A program made the position numbers and the translations under genes. Of a DNA stretch of 41,094 nucleotides, positions 2,755 through 28,865 are shown in pieces. The DNA comes from a virus: positions 7,490-48,583 of the IMG/VR virus record IMGVR_UViG_3300033144_004524; one strand, 5' to 3'. Under the pieces are notes generated by a model, which was given only the letters and a program-made list of their open reading frames with translations, did no database searches and was not told where the DNA came from. Numbering within the stretch: position 1 is the first letter of the stretch; each line of letters opens with the position of its first letter.

Positions 2755-3657
2755 ATGGCCTATTGTAGACAGCGTTTGCTGGGATTGCTCCTGGCAGTAT
2801 TTCTGGTTTTTTGCTTGACGAGTCAGCGATGCCCCGCCTCCGTTGGCACGGATCTGCAAGCAGTCAGCGTCAATGTGTATTGCCCGGGGGGAACGCAAGG
2901 CTCGGGGACTATTTATATCGCGCTCCTCGGCGATGGAACCAGCTTGACGTGGATCTTGACAGCAAACCATGTAGTCAGCGGTCTCCGCAAAGTGACCACG
3001 ATCATCGACGAAAAAGGTAAAGACAGGAAGATAGTGAAATATCGAGATGCGGAGGTCGTGCAAGAGAAAGTGTGGGAAGGGCGAAGCGCTGGTGAAGTTC
3101 GATACGCGGCGAAAGTTGTCAGTGTAAGCAGGACCAGGGATCTTGCGCTGTTGCAAGTGCGAATGGCAAGCGCGTTCTCCACTGGCGCACAACTGTATAT
3201 GGAGAAGGCGATTCCAGAGCCGGGAACTGAGTTGTACCATTGTGGTGCTCCGGGCGGACGGGACCTTGGCGGAACGTGCTCGCTCACTCCTGGAATTGTA
3301 TCTAGAATTGGAGTTTCCATCCCATCGTATGGTGGATCGGAACACGGGATTTTCGACCAGGTTACATGCGCAGCGCTGGGCGGGTCGTCCGGCGGACTGG
3401 TCGCCTTGACTGGAGATGGCCGCGTAGTGGGAATTATCACGCTCGGCATGAGAGGCGCTGACTCGTTTCATTGGTGCGTTCCCGTGCGATCGATTCTCCA
3501 GTTCGCAAGGGAATCACGCCTGCTGTGGGTTTTTGATCCCGGGGCTGATCGCCCTGAAGATAGTGGATCAATTGACGCGGTCCTAGAGGTCAGCGACGAT
3601 ACCAAGTTTTCCAGCGAATCGCTGAGTGAATCCGATTCAGATTCCGGCACGGAATAA
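2755..3657 (+). CDS. Secreted trypsin-like serine protease
   Basis: Probable exported endopeptidase of the trypsin/HtrA fold. Residues 1-28 form a signal peptide: a short basic start, then a hydrophobic core (LLGLLLAVFLVFCL). The catalytic triad is visible: His72 in LTANHVV, Asp129 in TRDLALLQV, and Ser212 in GGSSGGL. The C-terminal 40 residues are acidic and Ser-rich (SSESLSESDSDS), like a disordered tail; no PDZ domain follows, unlike DegP. ATG at 2755 was chosen because AGGAAGAG precedes it; a TTG 18 bases upstream is possible. It heads the exported-protein block. Such proteases are unusual in phages and may act on host envelope proteins, on phage proteins in the periplasm, or in lysis; this is inference. 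Confidence 0.85.
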   Translation: MAYCRQRLLGLLLAVFLVFCLTSQRCPASVGTDLQAVSVNVYCPGGTQGSGTIYIALLGDGTSLTWILTANHVVSGLRKVTTIIDEKGKDRKIVKYRDAEVVQEKVWEGRSAGEVRYAAKVVSVSRTRDLALLQVRMASAFSTGAQLYMEKAIPEPGTELYHCGAPGGRDLGGTCSLTPGIVSRIGVSIPSYGGSEHGIFDQVTCAALGGSSGGLVALTGDGRVVGIITLGMRGADSFHWCVPVRSILQFARESRLLWVFDPGADRPEDSGSIDAVLEVSDDTKFSSESLSESDSDSGTE

Positions 3658-3665
3658 GGTGGCCC

Positions 3666-3673
3666 AGGAGGAG
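3666..3673 (+). promoter_or_regulatory. Strong ribosome binding site deciding a start
   Basis: AGGAGGAG is one of the best Shine-Dalgarno matches in the + arm. It lies too close to the ATG at 3674 for ideal spacing (2 bases from AGGAGG) but 8 bases from the in-frame GTG at 3680, two codons later. The GTG may therefore be the real start. Confidence 0.5.
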
Positions 3674-4282
3674 ATGCCAGTGGCAAGCGTAATTTTCGAT
3701 ATCAACGGCCGCCCTATCTACCCAGAAGCCGGAGACTTATTCGGATTTTCCGGGTCCGGCTGGGTATCCAAAGCGATCACACTGCTGACCTATGGATGGC
3801 CTGGATGGGGCATCTCTCATGTGGCCATTGTCGCTCCGTATAATGAAGTGCCGTCTCTATACGAGTCAACAACGTTGACTGATCTGGTGTGCAAACACGC
3901 CAAGAGGCGGCTGAAGGGCGTGCAGGTACATGATATCAGGGACAGGATCGAGGCATACGAAGGGCGCATCTGGTTCTATGCAGCGACACAACCAGTATCC
4001 CGATACAGCCAGGTGGACATGGAATTGTTCCTCCTGGGGCAGCTAGGCAAGGAATACGATGCCATCGGTGCGTTGCGGTCTGGCGGGAAACTCTTCAGCT
4101 TCGTGGAGAGTCTTCTCAGGGAAGAGGACCTGTCGGATATCTATTGCAGCGAATTGGCGGCTGCTGCGCTCCGCATAGTTCGATTGCTAAACACGAATAA
4201 CGTCAGCAAGTGGAACCCTGCCGCGCTATTGCGCCATCAGGTGCGGACCTATGCTGCCGAGCGACCACGGAGGGTGAAATGA
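3674..4282 (+). CDS. YiiX-like permuted NlpC/P60 cysteine hydrolase
   Basis: Likely papain-fold amidase or peptidase. The family signature is visible in permuted order: DLFGFSG and WGISHVAIV with His49, GKEYDAIG in the middle, then YCSELAAAAL with Cys158 near the C-terminus. This is the YiiX/YebB-type layout, where His precedes Cys. The length of about 200 residues fits. No signal peptide is seen. Start is ATG 3674 or GTG 3680; the latter has better spacing to AGGAGGAG. Family members cleave amide or ester bonds in peptidoglycan peptides or lipids. Its place among exported and membrane proteins suggests a role at the envelope or lysis, but substrate and timing are inferred only. Confidence 0.75.
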   Translation: MPVASVIFDINGRPIYPEAGDLFGFSGSGWVSKAITLLTYGWPGWGISHVAIVAPYNEVPSLYESTTLTDLVCKHAKRRLKGVQVHDIRDRIEAYEGRIWFYAATQPVSRYSQVDMELFLLGQLGKEYDAIGALRSGGKLFSFVESLLREEDLSDIYCSELAAAALRIVRLLNTNNVSKWNPAALLRHQVRTYAAERPRRVK

Positions 4283-4413
4283 AGTACGTTAGGCCGAAGA
4301 GGAAAAACAGGCATAGGAATAAGCTGGACAGTACCAGCAAATGTCACATTTGCAATACGAAACATTTATCACATATTCCTTGCCATATCCATCGCCCGAG
4401 GGTGGTAAAATGA
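4279..4413 (+). CDS. Tiny Cys/His protein
   Basis: The product is 44 residues: a strongly basic first half (MKYVRPKRKNRHRNKL) then KCHICNTKHLSHIPCHIHR, which supplies C-x2-C, H, C-x-H ligands suitable for one zinc ion. The ATG overlaps the previous stop (ATGA at 4279) and its own stop overlaps the next ATG (ATGA at 4410), so it is embedded in a coupled series. GGAGGG lies seven bases upstream. Function is unknown; a small zinc-binding nucleic-acid or protein-binding factor is possible. Confidence 0.6.
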   Translation: MKYVRPKRKNRHRNKLDSTSKCHICNTKHLSHIPCHIHRPRVVK

Positions 4414-5015
4414 TTCCAGATACCGTGTTTAAGCGCCTGATCCTTGCGGTGTATGCGTCAATTTTGATAATAGTTTTCGCTCAATTGCTGGACCACGGCA
4501 TTTTGACACTTAACATTCCCGGCTACACGGGCATTGCGCCACCTCGCGAGGTGCCAACTGTCAACCTGCCACCTGGACTGAGGCAGGGAAATTGGACCGG
4601 CGACTCTTGCGTTTGGGCTAGTCTAATCTCGCTGCTCAGATGGCAGGAGCAGCCAGCGGCGGCGGACTTTATCAAACGGAATTACCAGGGCGGGGCGTAC
4701 ACCAGTCGCCTCGGGGGCCAGATGGACCTGATTGGAATGCGGTACGCCGAGACGCACGCCGGCAACACCGCCTTTCTCGAATGGGCGGTCCGCACCCGAC
4801 GAGGAGCCGGCATTGTCGTCCGAGGCGGTCGCCACATGGTCGCCCTCGTACACCTCGATAAAACGAGGGCCGGCATCCTCGACAATAATAGCGTTGGCAA
4901 GATCCTGTGGCGAAGCCGCGAGGATCTCCTGGCGGAATGGCGGGCCGCCGGGGGCTACGCGATAGTACCAGTCTACACCCCGCCCGCACCCCATGTTGAA
5001 GGAGACAGACCGTGA
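4410..5015 (+). CDS. Membrane-anchored C39-like papain-fold peptidase
   Basis: Residues 8-28 form a membrane helix (LILAVYASILIIVFAQLL), and the rest is expected outside the cytoplasm. The soluble domain resembles peptidase C39-like papain folds: Cys67 in GDSCVWAS at the head of a helix, His142 in GGRHMVALV, and Asp158 in ILDNNS, in the usual Cys-His-Asp order. The length of 201 residues fits one domain plus anchor. The ATG at 4410 follows GAGGGTGG and overlaps the previous stop. It is the third peptidase-like enzyme in this block. It may cleave host envelope proteins or process neighbours; no ABC transporter is present, so bacteriocin-type processing is unlikely. G+C rises from here to about 6200. 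Confidence 0.65.
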   Translation: MIPDTVFKRLILAVYASILIIVFAQLLDHGILTLNIPGYTGIAPPREVPTVNLPPGLRQGNWTGDSCVWASLISLLRWQEQPAAADFIKRNYQGGAYTSRLGGQMDLIGMRYAETHAGNTAFLEWAVRTRRGAGIVVRGGRHMVALVHLDKTRAGILDNNSVGKILWRSREDLLAEWRAAGGYAIVPVYTPPAPHVEGDRP

Positions 5016-5713
5016 AAGATAAAGAATTGTATGCCGGAGTCCTATTTGTGGTCTCGGTTTGTGCGTCCGTTCTGGTCGTATCGACCACCACTGGGAATCC
5101 TGGAAAGTGCCTTGACGACCGCTGCAACGTGCCAACCGTGGAGACCGACGCCAACCTCCCGGTCGAGGAGCGTGTCGCCCCCATCGACGATTCGGCCGAG
5201 ATGCACCTGTCGATTGTGGGTAGTAGCCGGAGCCGCGAGTACCAAAAGCTGGTCCGCTGGTTCGACCGTGACCAGAAACTGAACGACTTCCGTAAGGGAT
5301 TGAAGTACCATGCGGTGACAACGGCGTCCCCCCTCTACAATGACCGATACCGACCGAACGTGCAGGGCCTCCCCACGGTCCGGCTGCAAGACGCCCAGGG
5401 GGTCGTTCTCTACGAGGTTGCGGGCCAGGATGTCCCAGCGTCAGAGTCTTCGTTGCTTTCCGCCATGGTCCGAGCCGTCGAGAAATTGACCGGGAACAGA
5501 TTCAAGTGCGACCCGAACCGAAACAAGTGCGACCCGAACCGGAAGAAAACCCCAGCCCCCGAGGTCGCGCCGTTCGTGGAGCCGGAGGTTCTCGTCGAGC
5601 CTGAGCCGAAGCCCGAACCGGAGCAGAGCAACACCCTCCCCATTTTGGCTGGCCTGGTCGGGGCGGCTGCGGCCGGTGTAGCAGGCGCTCGAAAGAAGCT
5701 GAAGGCCGCCTAG
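5012..5713 (+). CDS. Bitopic membrane protein with thioredoxin-like domain lacking CxxC
   Basis: GTG start at 5012 after GGAG; it overlaps the previous stop (GTGA). Residues about 7-25 (YAGVLFVVSVCASVLVVST) form a signal anchor and residues about 210-226 a second hydrophobic segment followed by RKKLKAA. Between them, about residues 60-165 look like a degraded thioredoxin fold: a helix (YQKLVRWFDRDQK), then a strand after GLPTVRL, in which the Pro matches the cis-Pro loop. No CxxC active site is present, so it is not a simple thiol oxidoreductase. A tandem KCDPNRN/KCDPNRK repeat and a Pro/Glu-rich linker (residues about 180-205) precede the last helix. Function is unknown; it may be a binding or scaffold partner of the C39-like enzyme. 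Confidence 0.65.
   Translation: MKDKELYAGVLFVVSVCASVLVVSTTTGNPGKCLDDRCNVPTVETDANLPVEERVAPIDDSAEMHLSIVGSSRSREYQKLVRWFDRDQKLNDFRKGLKYHAVTTASPLYNDRYRPNVQGLPTVRLQDAQGVVLYEVAGQDVPASESSLLSAMVRAVEKLTGNRFKCDPNRNKCDPNRKKTPAPEVAPFVEPEVLVEPEPKPEPEQSNTLPILAGLVGAAAAGVAGARKKLKAA
5504..5541 (+). repeat. Tandem 21-base repeat within coding sequence
   Basis: AAGTGCGACCCGAACCG occurs at 5504-5520 and again at 5525-5541, a 21-base period that keeps frame and duplicates KCDPNR in the membrane protein. The identical third bases suggest a recent slippage duplication. Confidence 0.8.
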
Positions 5714-5818
5714 CCGCCAAACTGGCCCAAACGCCCCCAGTCGCTATACAGTCGGCACCTTTCGGGGCCCGTTTGTTGACACCCCTACCTAAGTACCCAC
5801 TCAACAAAAGGACACACT

Positions 5819-6199
5819 ATGTTCAACTTCGACATCCAAACCATCCTCATCATCGCGGCCGTCGTGGCGGCAGCGTACTACGGAAGCCAGTACCTCGTCG
5901 GCGTGGACACCAGAGTCGAGGGGCGACGGCGTGCCGCAAACGAGCTGGCTGGCCAACTCCAGGCTCTCGGGCTGGTGCAGATCCCAGACCTTCTTTTGGA
6001 CTACGGGGTCGGCGACTACAGCGGCATGGGAGAGCACCTCATTCGCGTGGTGAAGCTCTTTTCTGGCAATCCAGCGGCCGTGCTTACGGAGTTCAACCAA
6101 ATCTTCGGCCGCCTGCTTGACGCCAAGCTCAGCACCAAGGAGGGGCGAGCCCTCATCGAAGCGAAGTTGGCAGAGACGGCGGCATCAGCCGAGAAGTAG
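5819..6199 (+). CDS. Small membrane-anchored protein
   Basis: Not recognised. The product has 126 residues, with an N-terminal membrane helix at about residues 7-26 (QTILIIAAVVAAAYYGSQYL) followed by a helical soluble domain. AAAGGA lies six bases before the ATG. A 105-base gap precedes it, the longest in this block. The gap contains an isolated TTGACA at 5774 without a -10 partner, so the gene may have its own regulation, though no promoter can be defined. High G+C and codon use match the two upstream genes and differ from the rest of the arm. The soluble part (LLLDYGVGDYSGMGEHLIR, then EGRALIEAKLAETAASAEK) has no known motif that I recognise. Confidence 0.65.
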   Translation: MFNFDIQTILIIAAVVAAAYYGSQYLVGVDTRVEGRRRAANELAGQLQALGLVQIPDLLLDYGVGDYSGMGEHLIRVVKLFSGNPAAVLTEFNQIFGRLLDAKLSTKEGRALIEAKLAETAASAEK

Positions 6200-6235
6200 G
6201 CCGCTTATGGAATTGCCGTCCGGCAAGAGTGGGGA

Positions 6236-6445
6236 ATGAGCAGCATGGAATACGGCAAGGCGATCCTGAAGCGGTCGCTTACGATAATTGTCGCCGTGAC
6301 AATTATCGTGCTGCCGTATTTCGTGATGCACAAACCAGCCCTGGAGTCATTCAGCGTAGACTATGACGGGTATATTGTTCCGACATCGGAAGCGCGCGAC
6401 AACGCACGCAGACCCTTGAATGTTACGGCGAATCGGAGACTGTAA
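6236..6445 (+). CDS. Small single-helix membrane protein
   Basis: The product has 69 residues. A basic N-terminus (KAILKRS) precedes one membrane helix at about residues 14-32 (LTIIVAVTIIVLPYFVM); the polar tail ends in basic residues. The topology is one helix with a likely outside C-terminus. ATG codons at 6236 and 6245 are both possible; the ribosome site (GGGGA) is weak for either. Its stop directly abuts the next ATG (TAAATG). A 5-bp hairpin (6213-6226) lies upstream. It could be an antiholin-, pinholin- or spanin-like part of a lysis set with the following gene, which is only a guess. Confidence 0.6.
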   Translation: MSSMEYGKAILKRSLTIIVAVTIIVLPYFVMHKPALESFSVDYDGYIVPTSEARDNARRPLNVTANRRL

Positions 6446-6775
6446 ATGAAGATTACCGCACTAGGCCTCTTGGCCGGCTCGGTACTAATGGCCGCTTCGG
6501 ACGTTATTCCTAGCGGCGCGACTAGCATCTTCCAAGGCAGTGCATTTGCGCTCCTGGGATGGATGGTGTGGTACTTGCTGGCCAAGGCTTTGCCGGCGCA
6601 TTACAAGGCTGCGGCCACGGAGAGGAGTGAGTATCTGTCTGCACTTGACTGCGCGCGCAAGGACTATCTTTCGGATGCACAGGATTATCGTAAGCAGTTC
6701 TGCGAAGCCATCGAAAGATTGGAGCGCTCATTGCGGGAGCTTCACGATAGTATCGAAAGGATCGGACGACAATGA
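6446..6775 (+). CDS. Putative holin-like two-helix membrane protein
   Basis: The product has 109 residues. Two hydrophobic segments, about residues 3-20 (ITALGLLAGSVLMAA) and 30-48 (GSAFALLGWMVWYLLAKAL), are separated by a short polar turn and followed by a charged helical tail that looks like a coiled coil (AIERLERSLRELHDSIERI). Two helices and a charged C-terminus match class II holins in layout and size, but holins have little sequence identity, and membrane scaffolds look the same. The gene abuts the previous stop and overlaps the next start (ATGA at 6772). The nearby papain-fold enzymes support a lysis cassette; no classical endolysin was recognised anywhere in the window. Confidence 0.5.
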   Translation: MKITALGLLAGSVLMAASDVIPSGATSIFQGSAFALLGWMVWYLLAKALPAHYKAAATERSEYLSALDCARKDYLSDAQDYRKQFCEAIERLERSLRELHDSIERIGRQ

Positions 6776-6984
6776 ATGTTCACCTAGTCTCGGAATTGGG
6801 GGAGTTTCTGGTTGGCACGGTAGAAGAAGTGCTCTCGGGATCGCCGCCTGGATTGCCACCTTGCAGTGGCGGAGTTGGCCAGTCTCTTGGAACATTCCTG
6901 TGTGACCACGTCGCCGAAATGATGTCGGATGTGGACGATGAGGACAGGGATGGGGAGCTGGACCTGGTGTTGCGTGTGCGATAG
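6772..6984 (+). CDS. Small acidic protein
   Basis: Not recognised. The product is 70 residues, acidic at its C-terminal half (MMSDVDDEDRDGELDLVLRV), with two Cys in a Gly/Pro-rich middle. It shares an ATGA overlap with the preceding membrane gene and ends the exported-protein block. The DVDDEDRDG stretch vaguely resembles an EF-hand or dockerin-type calcium loop, but it is too short to call. The 31-base gap after it holds the ribosome site of the Sak4-like gene. Confidence 0.5.
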   Translation: MNVHLVSELGEFLVGTVEEVLSGSPPGLPPCSGGVGQSLGTFLCDHVAEMMSDVDDEDRDGELDLVLRVR

Positions 6985-7015: not shown

Positions 7016-7822
7016 ATGTCTTTCGATCTTCAGTCTATCACTGCGGACTGCCAGTCCATGCCGCCGAGGATTATCGTTCTCGGCGTGGAGAAAATTGGCA
7101 AGTCGACCTTCGCAGCCTCCAGCGACCGTCCCATCTTTTTCCCGATCGTCCGCGAGGAAGGTATCGACGATCTTGCTGTGCCGAGTTTCCCAACTGTCCA
7201 TAGCGTCGATCAATTGATGACCGGCCTAGGCAGCCTGTACAATGGGGATCACGACTTCGGAACGGTTGTGGTCGATTCTTCTAGCGCCTTGGAGCCAGTG
7301 ATCTGGCGATCCGTGTGCGAGAAATTCAATTGCGACAACATCGAAAAGGTGGGTGGAGGATACGGAAAGGGATACACCTACGCAGTCGATCAGTGGGACC
7401 TAATACTCCAGGGGCTTGACGCGCTTCGCACAAAGGGAATCGCGTCAATCATCATCGGGCATGTCAAGGTCAAGGTTTTCAATGACCCGGAAGGACCCTC
7501 ATACGACCAATACCAGTGGGATATCCACGACAAGGCGGCCAATAAGCTGTTCAGGTGGGCCGACAGCATCTTGTTCTGCAATCAAAAGGTTGCAGTCGTG
7601 AAGGAAGACGCCGGGTTCGGCAAGACCATTGGCAAGGGTGTCGATGTCAGCGGTGGACAAAGGTATCTGTACACGCAACGAAGGCCGGCGCATCCAGGCG
7701 GCGGTCGCGGGGCTTATGGGCGCTTACCTTACGAGCTATCGTTGTCGTGGGATGCTTACATGCAAGCAATTACGTCAGTAGTCAAACCTCAAGAGGAGAG
7801 CAACAATGGCAGACCTGAGTGA
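7016..7822 (+). CDS. Sak4-like RecA-fold ATPase (recombinase/annealing)
   Basis: Phage single-strand annealing or recombination ATPase of the AAA_24/Sak4 type. Walker A is at residues 23-31 (GVEKIGKST), Walker B ends at Asp87 (FGTVVVDSSS), and IIIGHVKVK near residue 145 fits the sensor strand. The length of 268 residues is typical. AAGGGAGA lies six bases before the ATG. It is followed, overlapping, by an SSB-like protein and further on by a nuclease, the usual neighbours of Sak4 proteins, which load on single-stranded DNA with help from the SSB. It opens the recombination and replication block. Confidence 0.85.
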   Translation: MSFDLQSITADCQSMPPRIIVLGVEKIGKSTFAASSDRPIFFPIVREEGIDDLAVPSFPTVHSVDQLMTGLGSLYNGDHDFGTVVVDSSSALEPVIWRSVCEKFNCDNIEKVGGGYGKGYTYAVDQWDLILQGLDALRTKGIASIIIGHVKVKVFNDPEGPSYDQYQWDIHDKAANKLFRWADSILFCNQKVAVVKEDAGFGKTIGKGVDVSGGQRYLYTQRRPAHPGGGRGAYGRLPYELSLSWDAYMQAITSVVKPQEESNNGRPE

Positions 7823-17096: not shown

Positions 17097-17318
17097 ATGA
17101 ACCGACACTTCTGGAGACGCATCGTGCATGTCGATCGCTATCGAACGCTGGGCCACCCCAACAGCGCCGCAGACTCGGTATTAGTCACGCTCGACTGCGG
17201 TCACCAGAAACACTACAAGGGCTCGCAAGAACCCTCGGGACAGATCGTTACTTGCAAACCTTGTGCCGACAACGCGAAGACTCCCGATGAAGACGACGCC
17301 CCAACAGGAGATAAATAA
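17097..17318 (+). CDS. Small zinc-ribbon-like protein
   Basis: The product has 73 residues. VTLDCGHQKHY followed by VTCKPCAD gives one CxH and one CxxC ligand pair about 25 residues apart, a possible small zinc fold. The ATG at 17097 is six bases after AGGAGG (17085-17090); a GTG at 17094 is the alternative. The stop overlaps the start of the next gene (TAATG). Role unknown. The acidic C-terminus (TPDEDDAPTGD) looks disordered. Confidence 0.55.
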   Translation: MNRHFWRRIVHVDRYRTLGHPNSAADSVLVTLDCGHQKHYKGSQEPSGQIVTCKPCADNAKTPDEDDAPTGDK

Positions 17319-17956
17319 TGCCCATGTGTCAATGTCCAAGGTGCGACGGATGCGTCCTAGAAGACAGCGAGTATCGCGACGAAATGTGCCAATGCTCGGA
17401 GTGCGAGTTGGTGGAGATATGTAACCGCGTTGCCGGAAAGTCAGGCCCACCCGTTGAATGCGAAGGCGGGCTCGGCCGGGATCTCGATGGTCCGGCCGAC
17501 TTCCATTGGCACGCCGATAACAGCAACCGCGAACCACCTCAGTTGGCTCAACGGGTATGCGACCCCGTTCCGAAAGGTGATGGCCGAGAGGAGCGAGATC
17601 CATCCGGCAAGGATCAGCACGCTCCAGGTGCTAAATGCGATGCAGGTAAAGTCGAGCTTTCGTATCTCGAATACTTCCCCAAGGCGCTACGGGCTGTCTG
17701 CCTGGTGTCAATGTTCGGTGCGAAGAAGTATTCGAGGGGGGGGTGGATACACGTAAAGGACGGGAAGCGCAGGTACAAGGATGCGAAGTTTCGCCACATG
17801 CTTCCGGATGATGGTTTTGCCGCTCGCGACAGCGGGCTCCCTCATGCGGCGCACGCTGCGTGGAATGCGCTTGCAGTCCTGGAACTGGAGTTGTCTGAAT
17901 CGCCCGGCCTCCTTGAGGCCATGCAATCCACTGTAGCAGAAGGAGGAGGGAAATGA
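17318..17956 (+). CDS. dATP/dGTP diphosphohydrolase-like protein with N-terminal Cys domain
   Basis: Two parts. The first 40 residues hold eight Cys (C4, C6, C9, C12, C24, C26, C29, C35), a likely double zinc site. After a linker, residues about 106-200 match the dATP/dGTP diphosphohydrolase N-terminal domain (DUF5664): KCDAGKVELSYLEYFPKAL, FGAKKYSRGGW, YKDAKFRHML, DSGLPHAAHAAWNALAVLEL, with conserved His residues for metal. Members of this family are associated with phages that make 2-aminoadenine (Z) DNA, where they remove dATP, but many relatives have no such link. No PurZ gene was recognised in the window. It overlaps the next gene, a deoxyribosyltransferase-like enzyme, so they likely work on the same nucleotide pool. 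Confidence 0.65.
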   Translation: MPMCQCPRCDGCVLEDSEYRDEMCQCSECELVEICNRVAGKSGPPVECEGGLGRDLDGPADFHWHADNSNREPPQLAQRVCDPVPKGDGREERDPSGKDQHAPGAKCDAGKVELSYLEYFPKALRAVCLVSMFGAKKYSRGGWIHVKDGKRRYKDAKFRHMLPDDGFAARDSGLPHAAHAAWNALAVLELELSESPGLLEAMQSTVAEGGGK

Positions 17957-26060: not shown

Positions 26061-28865
26061 TTACGCAGTGCGTGCGGTTACTTCATTCCAACTGGTGCCA
26101 TCAAACACAAGTGTCCAACCACCCCAGGTTGAAATTGTACGGTCCACAGCACCAAAGAGCATGATGTCTTGGTTTCCAGTGCCTTCGCTGTGCTCTAAAG
26201 TTACGCTGTTTGAGCCGCTGGTCCGTACTACTTGAAGAACCTGGTTTGCCACTCCACCAACAAAACCGCCAATTGTTACATTGTTAGATGACGAATCCAC
26301 GTAAACAATGTTAGCACCGGACACATCCACATTGTCTGTCGGACCGGCAGCGCTAACGGTGACAGCCGCGCAGTGCAGCCCACCGGAAACCTTCACCTGC
26401 CCGCTGCCTGGCTGCAAGTCGAGATGCGTTCCATCGTAGTCTATCCTGGCCTGCTGAGATGCACCTAATACGAGGCCAGCATTATTCGCGTTGATTACCC
26501 AATCCCAACCCGTGTCATCCCACATGGAATACGCATTCGTAACCGTACCACCTGTTAATGGAGCCTCGAAATATATATTATAGAGGTTGGTTATTGTTCC
26601 ACCCCTAATGTACGGACGCAATCTATGTCCATAGCAGTTAGTCGTAGTTCCGACAGCGCCAGTTGCGTGGCCGTAGGTGGAGTCGTATGCCGTTTGGTAG
26701 TCCAGCGTGCTGCCCGCCGCCATATCGGATGTAGCCGTGGCCCCCATTACGCCAACAACGTGACCGCTGTTAGTGATGCCAGCAGCGACATTGGCGGGCA
26801 CGGAGAAATTGATACCGCGATTATGGTAGGTGCCGTTAATAGTCACGGTCGGATACAGATGAACTACGATTCCATGCGCCCAACTATCGTTAGTAACTGT
26901 CCAGGCTCCGGAGATTCCATCATCCACGTAGCTATCCGTCCCGAGCGACAGATGGTCGAAATGTGGATTGGCAGATATGGTAACATCCTGGTCGATGTAC
27001 GAATGGTCGCTTCCGTTGGACGAAACATGCGCATCGAGCGTAGCGCCATCCACCGACAAATCGCGACCATCAATCGTAACCAGGGCGTCCACTGCAAGAT
27101 TCCCAGCAAGGCTTCTCGCGCCGCTCGCCAGGAGGTACTGTGTATGGTCGTCATCGCCAAGACCGACTAAGCCGTCATGGTCTGGCAAGGATGAGCTTGT
27201 GTGCGTATGCCCGGGATCAGCGCCGCTTGTAACATTGGCTCCGGTGACAGTTCCGCTAGTCGTGAGGTTACTTGCGCCAAAATCTACCGCGTCCCAATTT
27301 GTGAAATGAACCTCGTCATTAGCCGTCACGCCTTCACTGTTGATAATGAGATCAGCGCCGTCGAAATAGATAGAGGCGTCTTGGGATTCTCCGAAGTAAA
27401 ATGGTTTATCATACGGGAAAGAAAGCTCCTCCGAGCCACCCGTCATTATGCCTTTGATTATTCCGCCTATATTAAGCTCATCCGAAACATCGCCAGCACT
27501 TAGGTCTGCGTCATAGCCGATGCAGATGTTATCAGAGCCCGTGGTTATGCTATTCCCTGCCTGGTAACCGATGAATAAGTTACCGGAATAACTGGAAAGA
27601 GAAACACCTCTCCCCGCATGAATCCCGATGCAGATATTTTCATCTCCCCCTTGATTGAAATATAGAGACCCATAGCCTAGTGCGAAGTTGTCATCTCCTG
27701 TTGTATTGGAATATCCTGCTTGATAACCGTATGCCGTGTTTCCAGCTCCACCCACATTGGAATAGAGCGCACGATAACCTATACCCGAATTATTCGGTCC
27801 CGTGCTTGCGTAAAGAGCCCCAGCACCTACTGCCACACAGCGGATTGCCGAAACATTATAACGGAGAGCTTCCACGCCAATCGCTACGTTTCCGTGCCCT
27901 GTTGTATTCGCAGCCAAAGCCCCACCACCTATTGCTGTGTTATAATATCCCGTGGTGTTGTCGGCAAGAGCTATACGACCTATTGCTGTATTGAAATATC
28001 CTGTGGTGTTAGCGTCAAATGCTCCTGAGCCCATTGCTACGTTATAGCTTCCGTGTGCGGTGCTTGTCGCTGTGCTCCCCATTGTAAAATTACCAGCGCC
28101 TACTCCTACGAAAGTATTCCGACCAGTAGGAACAGCCGTATTTCCCGTAGGGTGATGGAAGTTGTGAACAAACCTATCACCTGCTTTAGAAATAACCCCC
28201 TCATCTGAAGCAGTAGTGTCTTCCAAATCTACATTGCCGAGGAAGACTGTGTAGCCTGTATCTACTTCCTTTGGGTCGATAACCAGATTTGTGCCGTCGT
28301 AGTAGATGGAGGCGTCTTGGTTTGCGCCAAAATATGCCTTCCAGTTATCCCCATCAATGTTCAGGTGCCCATTTCCAACCCAGACTTCCTTCCATCTCCT
28401 TGTAGCGGAACCTAAGTCATAAGTGCTATCCGCGAATGGGAGTAAATCTGAGAGTACGCCTGATCCAACAGCAATGGAACCAGCTATTGAAACAACATCG
28501 AAATATCCTACGGCATATCTCTTTGAATTTGTGCCAATCGTATAGAGAGAGTCAGTGACAGGAATTACTGTCTGCGTAGCTTGTATGCCGGTTAAGTCGC
28601 GAGTTCCGTCGGCCAGCAAATACTGCGTATGGTCATCGTCGCCTAACCCACCAAACCCTCCGTGATCCAGCGTTGATTGGTTGATCCATTGCGCCTCGCC
28701 AGAAGCATCAGCCTGGAGGAGTTGGTCTTCAGCGCCAACTGCATCCGGGAGAATGCTTTCGATAAATTCCACCCTCTCCGTCAGCGAAACAGTATCAATG
28801 GAAATCCGCCCGAAGGCTTGCCGTATCTCAACTGGGTCATGCCCGTGGGGAATACGCCTAGTCAT
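26061..28865 (-). CDS. Long tail fibre with YadA-like repeats
   Basis: The product has 934 residues and is likely the receptor-binding fibre. The first 60 residues are the probable attachment part (LTERVEFIESILPDAVG). GLGDDDHTQYLLA appears at residues about 73-85 and again near 568-580, flanking related DASIYYDGTNLVI/DASIYFDGADLII pairs and a third copy of the type (ARIDYDGTHLDL). Residues about 249-452 are a run of around ten imperfect 21-residue repeats such as NTTGYYNTAIGGGAL, the left-handed beta-roll pattern of YadA/Hia adhesin heads, which form trimers. Long C-terminal beta-rich part follows. The start overlaps the previous gene (ATGA at 28862). The repeats probably set host range and are prone to gain or lose units. 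Confidence 0.8.
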   Translation of the reverse strand: MTRRIPHGHDPVEIRQAFGRISIDTVSLTERVEFIESILPDAVGAEDQLLQADASGEAQWINQSTLDHGGFGGLGDDDHTQYLLADGTRDLTGIQATQTVIPVTDSLYTIGTNSKRYAVGYFDVVSIAGSIAVGSGVLSDLLPFADSTYDLGSATRRWKEVWVGNGHLNIDGDNWKAYFGANQDASIYYDGTNLVIDPKEVDTGYTVFLGNVDLEDTTASDEGVISKAGDRFVHNFHHPTGNTAVPTGRNTFVGVGAGNFTMGSTATSTAHGSYNVAMGSGAFDANTTGYFNTAIGRIALADNTTGYYNTAIGGGALAANTTGHGNVAIGVEALRYNVSAIRCVAVGAGALYASTGPNNSGIGYRALYSNVGGAGNTAYGYQAGYSNTTGDDNFALGYGSLYFNQGGDENICIGIHAGRGVSLSSYSGNLFIGYQAGNSITTGSDNICIGYDADLSAGDVSDELNIGGIIKGIMTGGSEELSFPYDKPFYFGESQDASIYFDGADLIINSEGVTANDEVHFTNWDAVDFGASNLTTSGTVTGANVTSGADPGHTHTSSSLPDHDGLVGLGDDDHTQYLLASGARSLAGNLAVDALVTIDGRDLSVDGATLDAHVSSNGSDHSYIDQDVTISANPHFDHLSLGTDSYVDDGISGAWTVTNDSWAHGIVVHLYPTVTINGTYHNRGINFSVPANVAAGITNSGHVVGVMGATATSDMAAGSTLDYQTAYDSTYGHATGAVGTTTNCYGHRLRPYIRGGTITNLYNIYFEAPLTGGTVTNAYSMWDDTGWDWVINANNAGLVLGASQQARIDYDGTHLDLQPGSGQVKVSGGLHCAAVTVSAAGPTDNVDVSGANIVYVDSSSNNVTIGGFVGGVANQVLQVVRTSGSNSVTLEHSEGTGNQDIMLFGAVDRTISTWGGWTLVFDGTSWNEVTARTA
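27510..28121 (-). repeat. YadA-like 63-base repeat array inside the fibre gene
   Basis: About ten imperfect units of 21 residues (N-T-T-G-x-x-N-x-A-I-G-x-x-A-L) are encoded here, including blocks where the nucleotide sequence is also nearly repeated (for example between 27900 and 28020). The unit NTTGYYNTAIG is seen with small changes several times. Boundaries are approximate. Confidence 0.7.

Follow-up and report, generated by a model that had tools for sequence, protein, structure and literature searches.

What role is served by a compact run of genes for exported and membrane proteins that lies between the recombinase and replication genes of a phage? We address this question for positions 2755–6984 of a 41,094-nucleotide stretch of viral DNA (the window), which corresponds to positions 7490–48583 of the 48,583-base record IMGVR_UViG_3300033144_004524. 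The ends of the record share an overlap of 93 nt that contains a single mismatch, and between them they divide the terminase open reading frame (ORF); since this frame reads across the ends, we conclude that the ~48.5-kb phage genome (G000) is circular and complete. A preliminary description of the window had suggested that the block, with its three peptidase-like enzymes, may serve lysis or envelope attack in an unusual manner, against a host whose wall is rich in protein, or may be a host-takeover set. We favor a reading in which it is a lysis-type envelope-attack module of planctomycete phages that cuts mainly protein and not peptidoglycan, although we regard the case for it as about evenly balanced. 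Lysis as the outcome is suggested by the position of the block in relatives, the missing endolysin, and the apparent targeting of its products to the envelope.

Conservation and position of the block

The block has a core of four genes, encoding a C92 (permuted NlpC/P60, YiiX-like) enzyme, a C39-like cysteine protease, a thioredoxin-like protein (TRXn), and p126, a protein with one transmembrane (TM) segment. Alignment-based scans of IMG/VR recovered 28 C92, 66 C39, and 53 p126 loci, which were merged by shared proteins, without a tree, into 93 independent groups; these loci were gathered through searches for cassette genes, and all frequencies given here are within that sample. The window C92 protein matched nothing as a single-sequence query, and a three-sequence alignment query then retrieved its relatives. 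The order C92-C39-TRXn-p126 is present on one strand in 66 of the 93 loci and is never rearranged, with the remaining loci having subsets in unchanged order, mostly at the ends of cut contigs. Linkage of the block exceeds chance, and the comparison of gene order in related phages that the preliminary description had proposed thus finds a linked and ordered core, not scattered genes. The most constant member is p126 (93/93 loci), whose model matches 28/28 cassette contigs and for which there are no relatives in Pfam, PHROGs, or the PDB. We also note a 103-kb contig, IMGVR_UViG_3300050333_000165 (G008), on which p126 and C39 are each found twice, at ~6.2 kb and 75 kb and in opposite orientation; this could reflect either an additional cassette or the joining of separate contigs.

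The cassette is found in two phage groups whose terminases have no similarity to each other. The lineage A loci (63) have, on one strand, a 189-aa gene, C92, C39, TRXn, p126, thioredoxin, small genes, terminase, and portal, such that the cassette is immediately upstream of the terminase (PHROG 675, 2.8e-76) and portal (PHROG 145, 1.7e-32) genes in all 63. In lineage B (~25 loci, with the full-length ones ~50 kb) it mostly follows the last large late gene, and the order is a large late protein, an optional trypsin-like gene, C92, C39, TRXn, p126, thioredoxin, hol102 or tm95, and then AAA_24 or a tyrosine integrase; the AAA_24 recombination gene is directly downstream of the cassette in seven loci. 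The trypsin-like gene is present in nine of the 93 loci, the window and eight other lineage B loci, where it is placed before, inside, or after the core, and it is accessory, outside the conserved core. Although the window is a member of lineage B, a recombinase gene precedes its cassette and the late genes lie on the opposite strand. Sites just before the terminase and portal genes, or after the last late gene, are those usually occupied by lysis genes. The position of the cassette therefore supports a late role in the relatives, whereas in the window it gives no such support and may even speak against it.

The position of the block also bears on two explanations that do not involve lysis. 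It could be an envelope remodelling or superinfection-exclusion/host-takeover set that acts early on periplasmic or outer-membrane proteins such as receptors, and the window cassette does run with the recombination and replication genes, and seven loci have AAA_24 directly downstream; lipoproteins and periplasmic enzymes also fit exclusion. However, most relatives place the cassette with the late genes on the same strand, the module is apparently constant in both phage groups whereas exclusion genes are usually sporadic, and no other lysis genes are recognised, and we consider such a set unlikely. A second possibility is that the proteins act in maturation of the virion, in entry, or in non-lytic (chronic) release, given that the cassette adjoins the head/portal genes or a large late protein, and that chronic release without lysis is reported for one planctomycete phage (PMC10945688). 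This we find quite improbable, as signal, lipobox, and TM features put most of the products in the host envelope and not in virions, and the chronic-release phage has a genome of 21.9 kb.

The search for a known lysin

The preliminary description had recognised no normal endolysin in the block, and a separate endolysin in related phages would speak against the role that it proposed. Pfam and PHROG scans of the window proteins contain no known muralytic endolysin, and family scans for Amidase_2, Phage_lysozyme, SLT, M15_4, and M23 found none in 28 cassette contigs (0/28) with positive controls matched; the GH19 scan gives no information, as its control was without a match. A Pfam scan of 81 proteins from three complete circular genomes (G000, G013, and G015) and a near-complete one (G001) contains no lysin or holin, and neither is among the matches listed for G004 (25 of 38 families). 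The description is therefore borne out for both the window and its relatives as regards known enzymes, although divergent members escape such scans, and the claim is one of no known lysin and not of no lysin.

A candidate endolysin elsewhere in the window (17318–17956), which matches PHROG 5033 (a T7-lysozyme-type amidase), was rejected because the match covers the Pfam domain dGTP_diPhyd_N (PF18909, 1.1e-20); its C-terminal part reads as diphosphohydrolase-type, and the genome has no Amidase_2 match. We note that the PHROG 5033 label 'endolysin; inhibits RNA polymerase' looks wrong for the N-terminal domain of a dATP/dGTP diphosphohydrolase, and could mislead phage annotation.

Like lambda-type lysis cassettes (holin-endolysin-spanin), the block is a compact same-strand set of export and membrane genes, placed beside the terminase gene or where the late operon ends, and lineage B also has a small holin-like TM protein. 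It departs from them in that neither a muralytic enzyme nor a pair of spanins is recognised, and proteases, thioredoxin-fold proteins, and C92 are present instead. The hol102 protein of the window is related to nine lineage B homologues (E values of 1e-9 to 1e-19), and the small TM proteins of this lineage, hol102 and tm95, match no holin family. We considered TRXn as a unimolecular spanin with a lipobox and a C-terminal TM segment, and set this aside since most copies appear, by eye, to have signal peptidase I sites. There is no match to C39, p126, or C92 among INPHARED phages, and searches of the open-access literature for planctomycete phage lysis or a thioredoxin lysis cassette returned nothing on this module.

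Protease, thioredoxin-like proteins, and their replacements

The AlphaFold model of the window C39 protein (pLDDT 83.5) suggests a papain-like C39 fold with Cys-His-Asp, and the triad is well conserved in the family (C90 in 74/77, H165 in 77/77, and D181 in 76/77). The model matches the C39-like peptidase 3erv with Z 14.2 (rmsd 3.0, 142 aligned), tied with the pseudomurein endoisopeptidase PeiR (Z 13.9) and ComA (13.0), and Foldseek returns 5xe9 at 2.6e-4; at the sequence level, PF03412 (Peptidase C39) is matched by one of 25 family members (5.4e-4). A lipobox in 45/77 of the proteins makes many of the relatives lipoproteins by motif, with lipobox and topology calls throughout being made from hydropathy and motifs and not with a trained predictor. 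Relative to C39 peptidases and C39-type lysin domains (ComA/PCAT1, mycobacteriophage N5, and PeiR), the fold and the Cys-His-Asp order are common, but the phage C39 proteins are stand-alone and lipoprotein or TM-anchored; they are not part of an ABC transporter and have no domain for cell-wall binding.

The best viral fold matches of the C39 model include the endolysin of Gordonia phage OneUp (4.8e-4), mycobacteriophage LysA, and lysozymes of cyanophages, and these raise the question of whether this is a more ordinary lysis cassette, with the C39-like protein cutting peptidoglycan as an endopeptidase (in effect an endolysin that is exported and anchored) while its thioredoxin-like and TM partners do no more than assist it. 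C39-type domains do occur in phage lysins, including the C39-like domain of the mycobacteriophage N5 lysin (PMC3314691), and the similarity to PeiR and the peptidoglycan of planctomycetes (PMC4432640) are consistent with this explanation. However, the fold is equally common to ordinary C39 peptidases, and trypsin-like proteases, which are not expected to cut peptidoglycan stem peptides, substitute for C39 in some relatives (see below). We are thus doubtful that the C39-like enzyme is a peptidoglycan endolysin, and prefer the protein-cutting module.

The C92 family has a permuted triad (His, a polar residue, and then Cys near the C-terminus) at H65 (68/69 members), E80 (65/69), and C174 (69/69). 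Its profile matches 3kw0 in the PDB at 4.2e-5, and PF05708 (Peptidase_C92) is matched by eight of 25 members (best 9.1e-5), the window protein alone having no Pfam match. Compared with characterised Peptidase_C92 proteins (YiiX, BcPPNE, LnsA, and Tox-Act1), to which the profile matches are weak but significant, the phage H-E-C triad is permuted with a 15-residue H-to-E spacing as in BcPPNE (His49/Glu64). The phage enzyme is cytoplasmic by sequence and always adjoins the periplasmic protease/tether, whereas the substrates of its studied relatives are lipids or lipoproteins: YiiX and BcPPNE bind or act on lipids (PMC3142127), Tox-Act1 is a phospholipase of the permuted class (PMC12994826), and LnsA is a lipoprotein acylation component of that class (PMC7387801). 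Because these permuted enzymes are lipid-directed we set aside a role for C92 as a peptidoglycan endopeptidase and do not count it as a wall peptidase.

We propose that TRXn is an inner-membrane tether with a periplasmic head. The core of the head is modelled with pLDDT >90, and residues 53–161 have a thioredoxin fold (Z 10.8 to Caulobacter Trx1) in which, as originally described, CxxC is absent, both in the window protein and in 84/84 heads; the TRXn and C39 genes share 4 nt, at the start of the former and the stop of the latter. A second protein, the CxxC thioredoxin TRXc, is encoded just downstream of the core in 61 of the 75 loci with room for it, and the copies in relatives have CxxC in 58/58 and are lipoproteins by motif in 43/58. 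Relative to thioredoxins and DsbD-type periplasmic thioredoxins, TRXc therefore has the CxxC motif and TRXn the fold, but TRXn is without the motif and adds a Pro-rich linker and a C-terminal TM segment.

The protease slot can be occupied by other enzymes. Three lineage B loci with intact flanks (REPLACEMENTS: L100, L109, and L110) are without C39 and without the thioredoxin-like head, and have between C92 and p126 a single protein with a Trypsin_2 domain (8.5e-11, 2.9e-12, and 9.8e-11, respectively) followed by a TRXn-type linker and TM segment. Using the capsid protein as a query to fetch relatives irrespective of the cassette, we found 17 contigs without p126 and C92, eight of them 42–53 kb, and all six that were fetched are circular (6/6). 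Five capsid-related genomes (G028, G029, G031, G033, and G035) encode a trypsin-thioredoxin fusion. Its position was read in four (G028, G029, G031, and G035), where it is one lipoprotein that follows the large late gene and precedes a hol102 homologue; its trypsin-like domain is related to the L100 protease (1e-21 to 1e-23) and its CxxC thioredoxin domain matches PDB thioredoxins at 7.4e-7. The window hol102 matches its homologues in the protease-thioredoxin genomes at 1e-11 to 1e-14. In G030 this position is taken by genes for a protein that is possibly papain-like, for a TM protein, and for a CxxC thioredoxin, with the first of these (L253 1605–2357, - strand, 251 aa) assigned tentatively by motif and having no significant phmmer match in the PDB. 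Neither the cassette nor the fusion was found in G032 and G034, which have the capsid in common with the others. Constant across most of these genomes is a protease that is exported, together with a thioredoxin and a small TM protein. Joining of protease and thioredoxin in one protein is direct evidence of joint action and suggests a partnership among the cassette proteins, and both replacements point to proteolysis together with disulfide chemistry. A further 104-aa protein with hydrophobic stretches (L255 8787–9101, G031), encoded directly before the protease-thioredoxin gene, is holin-like by eye and has no INPHARED match.

All parts of the block listed in the preliminary description are present at 2755–6984 on the + strand and in the reading frames given there (Table 1), between a serine recombinase gene (1984–2673) upstream and a Sak4/AAA_24 gene (7016–7822) downstream. 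The ORF starts are probable, and were chosen by Shine-Dalgarno-like context. Pfam recognises only the trypsin-like protease, which has an N-terminal signal-like hydrophobic stretch and intact H and S motifs, and PHROGs add only weak or uninformative labels. An ORF similar in size to the last one of the block follows hol102 in several relatives.

Table 1. Genes of the block in the window, with the basis for each assignment.
Feature	Position	Strand	Basis
Secreted trypsin-like serine protease (S1/Trypsin_2), accessory	2755..3657	+	Pfam Trypsin_2 3.6e-16; motifs ANHV, GSSG
C92 (permuted NlpC/P60, YiiX-like) enzyme, no signal peptide	3674..4282 (longest ORF from 3626)	+	H65/E80/C174, numbered from the 3626 start
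C39-like cysteine protease, N-terminal membrane anchor	4410..5015 (longest ORF from 4341)	+	C90/H165/D181, numbered from the 4341 start
TRXn: thioredoxin-like head without CxxC, Pro-rich linker, C-terminal TM, basic tail	5012..5713	+	Predicted structure and sequence
p126: one N-terminal TM and a conserved helical domain	5819..6199	+	In 93/93 loci
69-aa one-TM protein	6236..6445	+	Occupies the slot of the relatives' CxxC thioredoxin lipoprotein
109-aa holin-like protein, family hol102, one or two TM, cytoplasmic coil	6446..6775	+	Similarity to lineage B homologues
70-aa acidic protein	6772..6984	+	Start overlaps the preceding stop

Two other observations in the window are recorded here. The TM-coding part of the 69-aa gene contains a near-perfect inverted repeat at 6281–6309 (CGATAATTGTCGCCGTGACAATTATCG), found as a minus-strand self-match. 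A 934-aa repeat-rich protein encoded at 26061–28865 (- strand) has PHROG matches to tail-spike/virion structural proteins, and its L004 relative matches only piecewise.

Possible opening of the planctomycete envelope

When 84,980 species genomes were scanned once for the C39 family, seven loci were returned, all of them (7/7) in metagenome-assembled genomes of Planctomycetota (Pirellulales, Planctomycetaceae, and others), four with the complete C92-C39-TRXn-p126 order and three with parts of it. These matches are to binned contigs, from which we infer that the host is very probably a member of the Planctomycetota. The older wall literature, as cited in PMC3035269, describes an SDS-resistant planctomycete envelope of Pro/Cys-rich protein held by disulfide bonds, and an envelope of this kind would be a plausible substrate for the block.

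With the predicted topologies and putative substrates of the cassette proteins, a tentative sequence of events can be proposed. Small TM proteins of the hol102 type, and perhaps p126, would damage the cytoplasmic membrane together with C92, should the latter be a phospholipase or acyltransferase as in its studied relatives. TRXn would keep C39, or a trypsin-like head of its own, on the outer side of the cytoplasmic membrane, with its Pro-rich arm extending into the periplasm, and a secreted trypsin-like enzyme, where present, would be a second protease. The CxxC thioredoxin lipoprotein of most relatives could reduce the disulfides of cystine-rich wall proteins, opening them to the protease, or could alternatively keep the cysteine protease reduced and active in an oxidising compartment; the balance tips slightly towards wall disulfides as the candidate substrate, because a thioredoxin is also present alongside trypsin-like enzymes, whose activity does not depend on a free thiol. 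Disulfide reduction and protein cutting would together open the Pro/Cys-rich envelope. Stated in full, this is a speculative proposal for an undescribed lysis strategy, in which tethered proteases, a thioredoxin reductant, and a lipid-acting C92 dissolve a disulfide-stabilised, protein-rich envelope in place of an endolysin, and in which the protease type (C39, trypsin, perhaps papain) swaps while the protease-thioredoxin pairing stays; we think it possible, with less assurance than the module itself.

Several observations weigh against a protein-cutting lysis module. Planctomycetes do contain lysozyme-sensitive peptidoglycan (PMC4432640), and protein cutting alone may thus not suffice. A sensitivity control with PF05708 missed most C92 enzymes, so that a divergent lysin could likewise escape detection, and no clear holin is seen in lineage A. 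The window cassette is co-directional with the recombination and replication genes and opposite to the late genes, and it is without the CxxC thioredoxin lipoprotein, having a 69-aa TM protein instead. Extra C39 cysteines do not co-occur significantly with the thioredoxin (p=0.10, uncorrected for phylogeny), and the C39 cysteine pair was dropped as a thioredoxin substrate after this test. Overall, the initial suggestion of an envelope-attack or lysis module for a protein-rich wall is supported in part, by the linkage, the absence of a known endolysin, and the probable Planctomycetota host; the permuted NlpC/P60 enzyme is, however, not counted as a wall peptidase, and the trypsin-like protease is accessory.

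Planctomycetes are widespread, and the make-up of their envelope, a protein wall or peptidoglycan, has been argued for decades; to our knowledge, almost nothing is known of lytic planctomycete phages. If the block is a lysis module, its phages would reveal which polymer of the envelope has to be cleaved for planctomycete cells to be opened, and the combination of protease and thioredoxin would be added to the known modes of phage lysis. Even if it does not act in lysis, it is a widespread, conserved, and unannotated envelope module with replaceable protease heads and intact catalytic residues.

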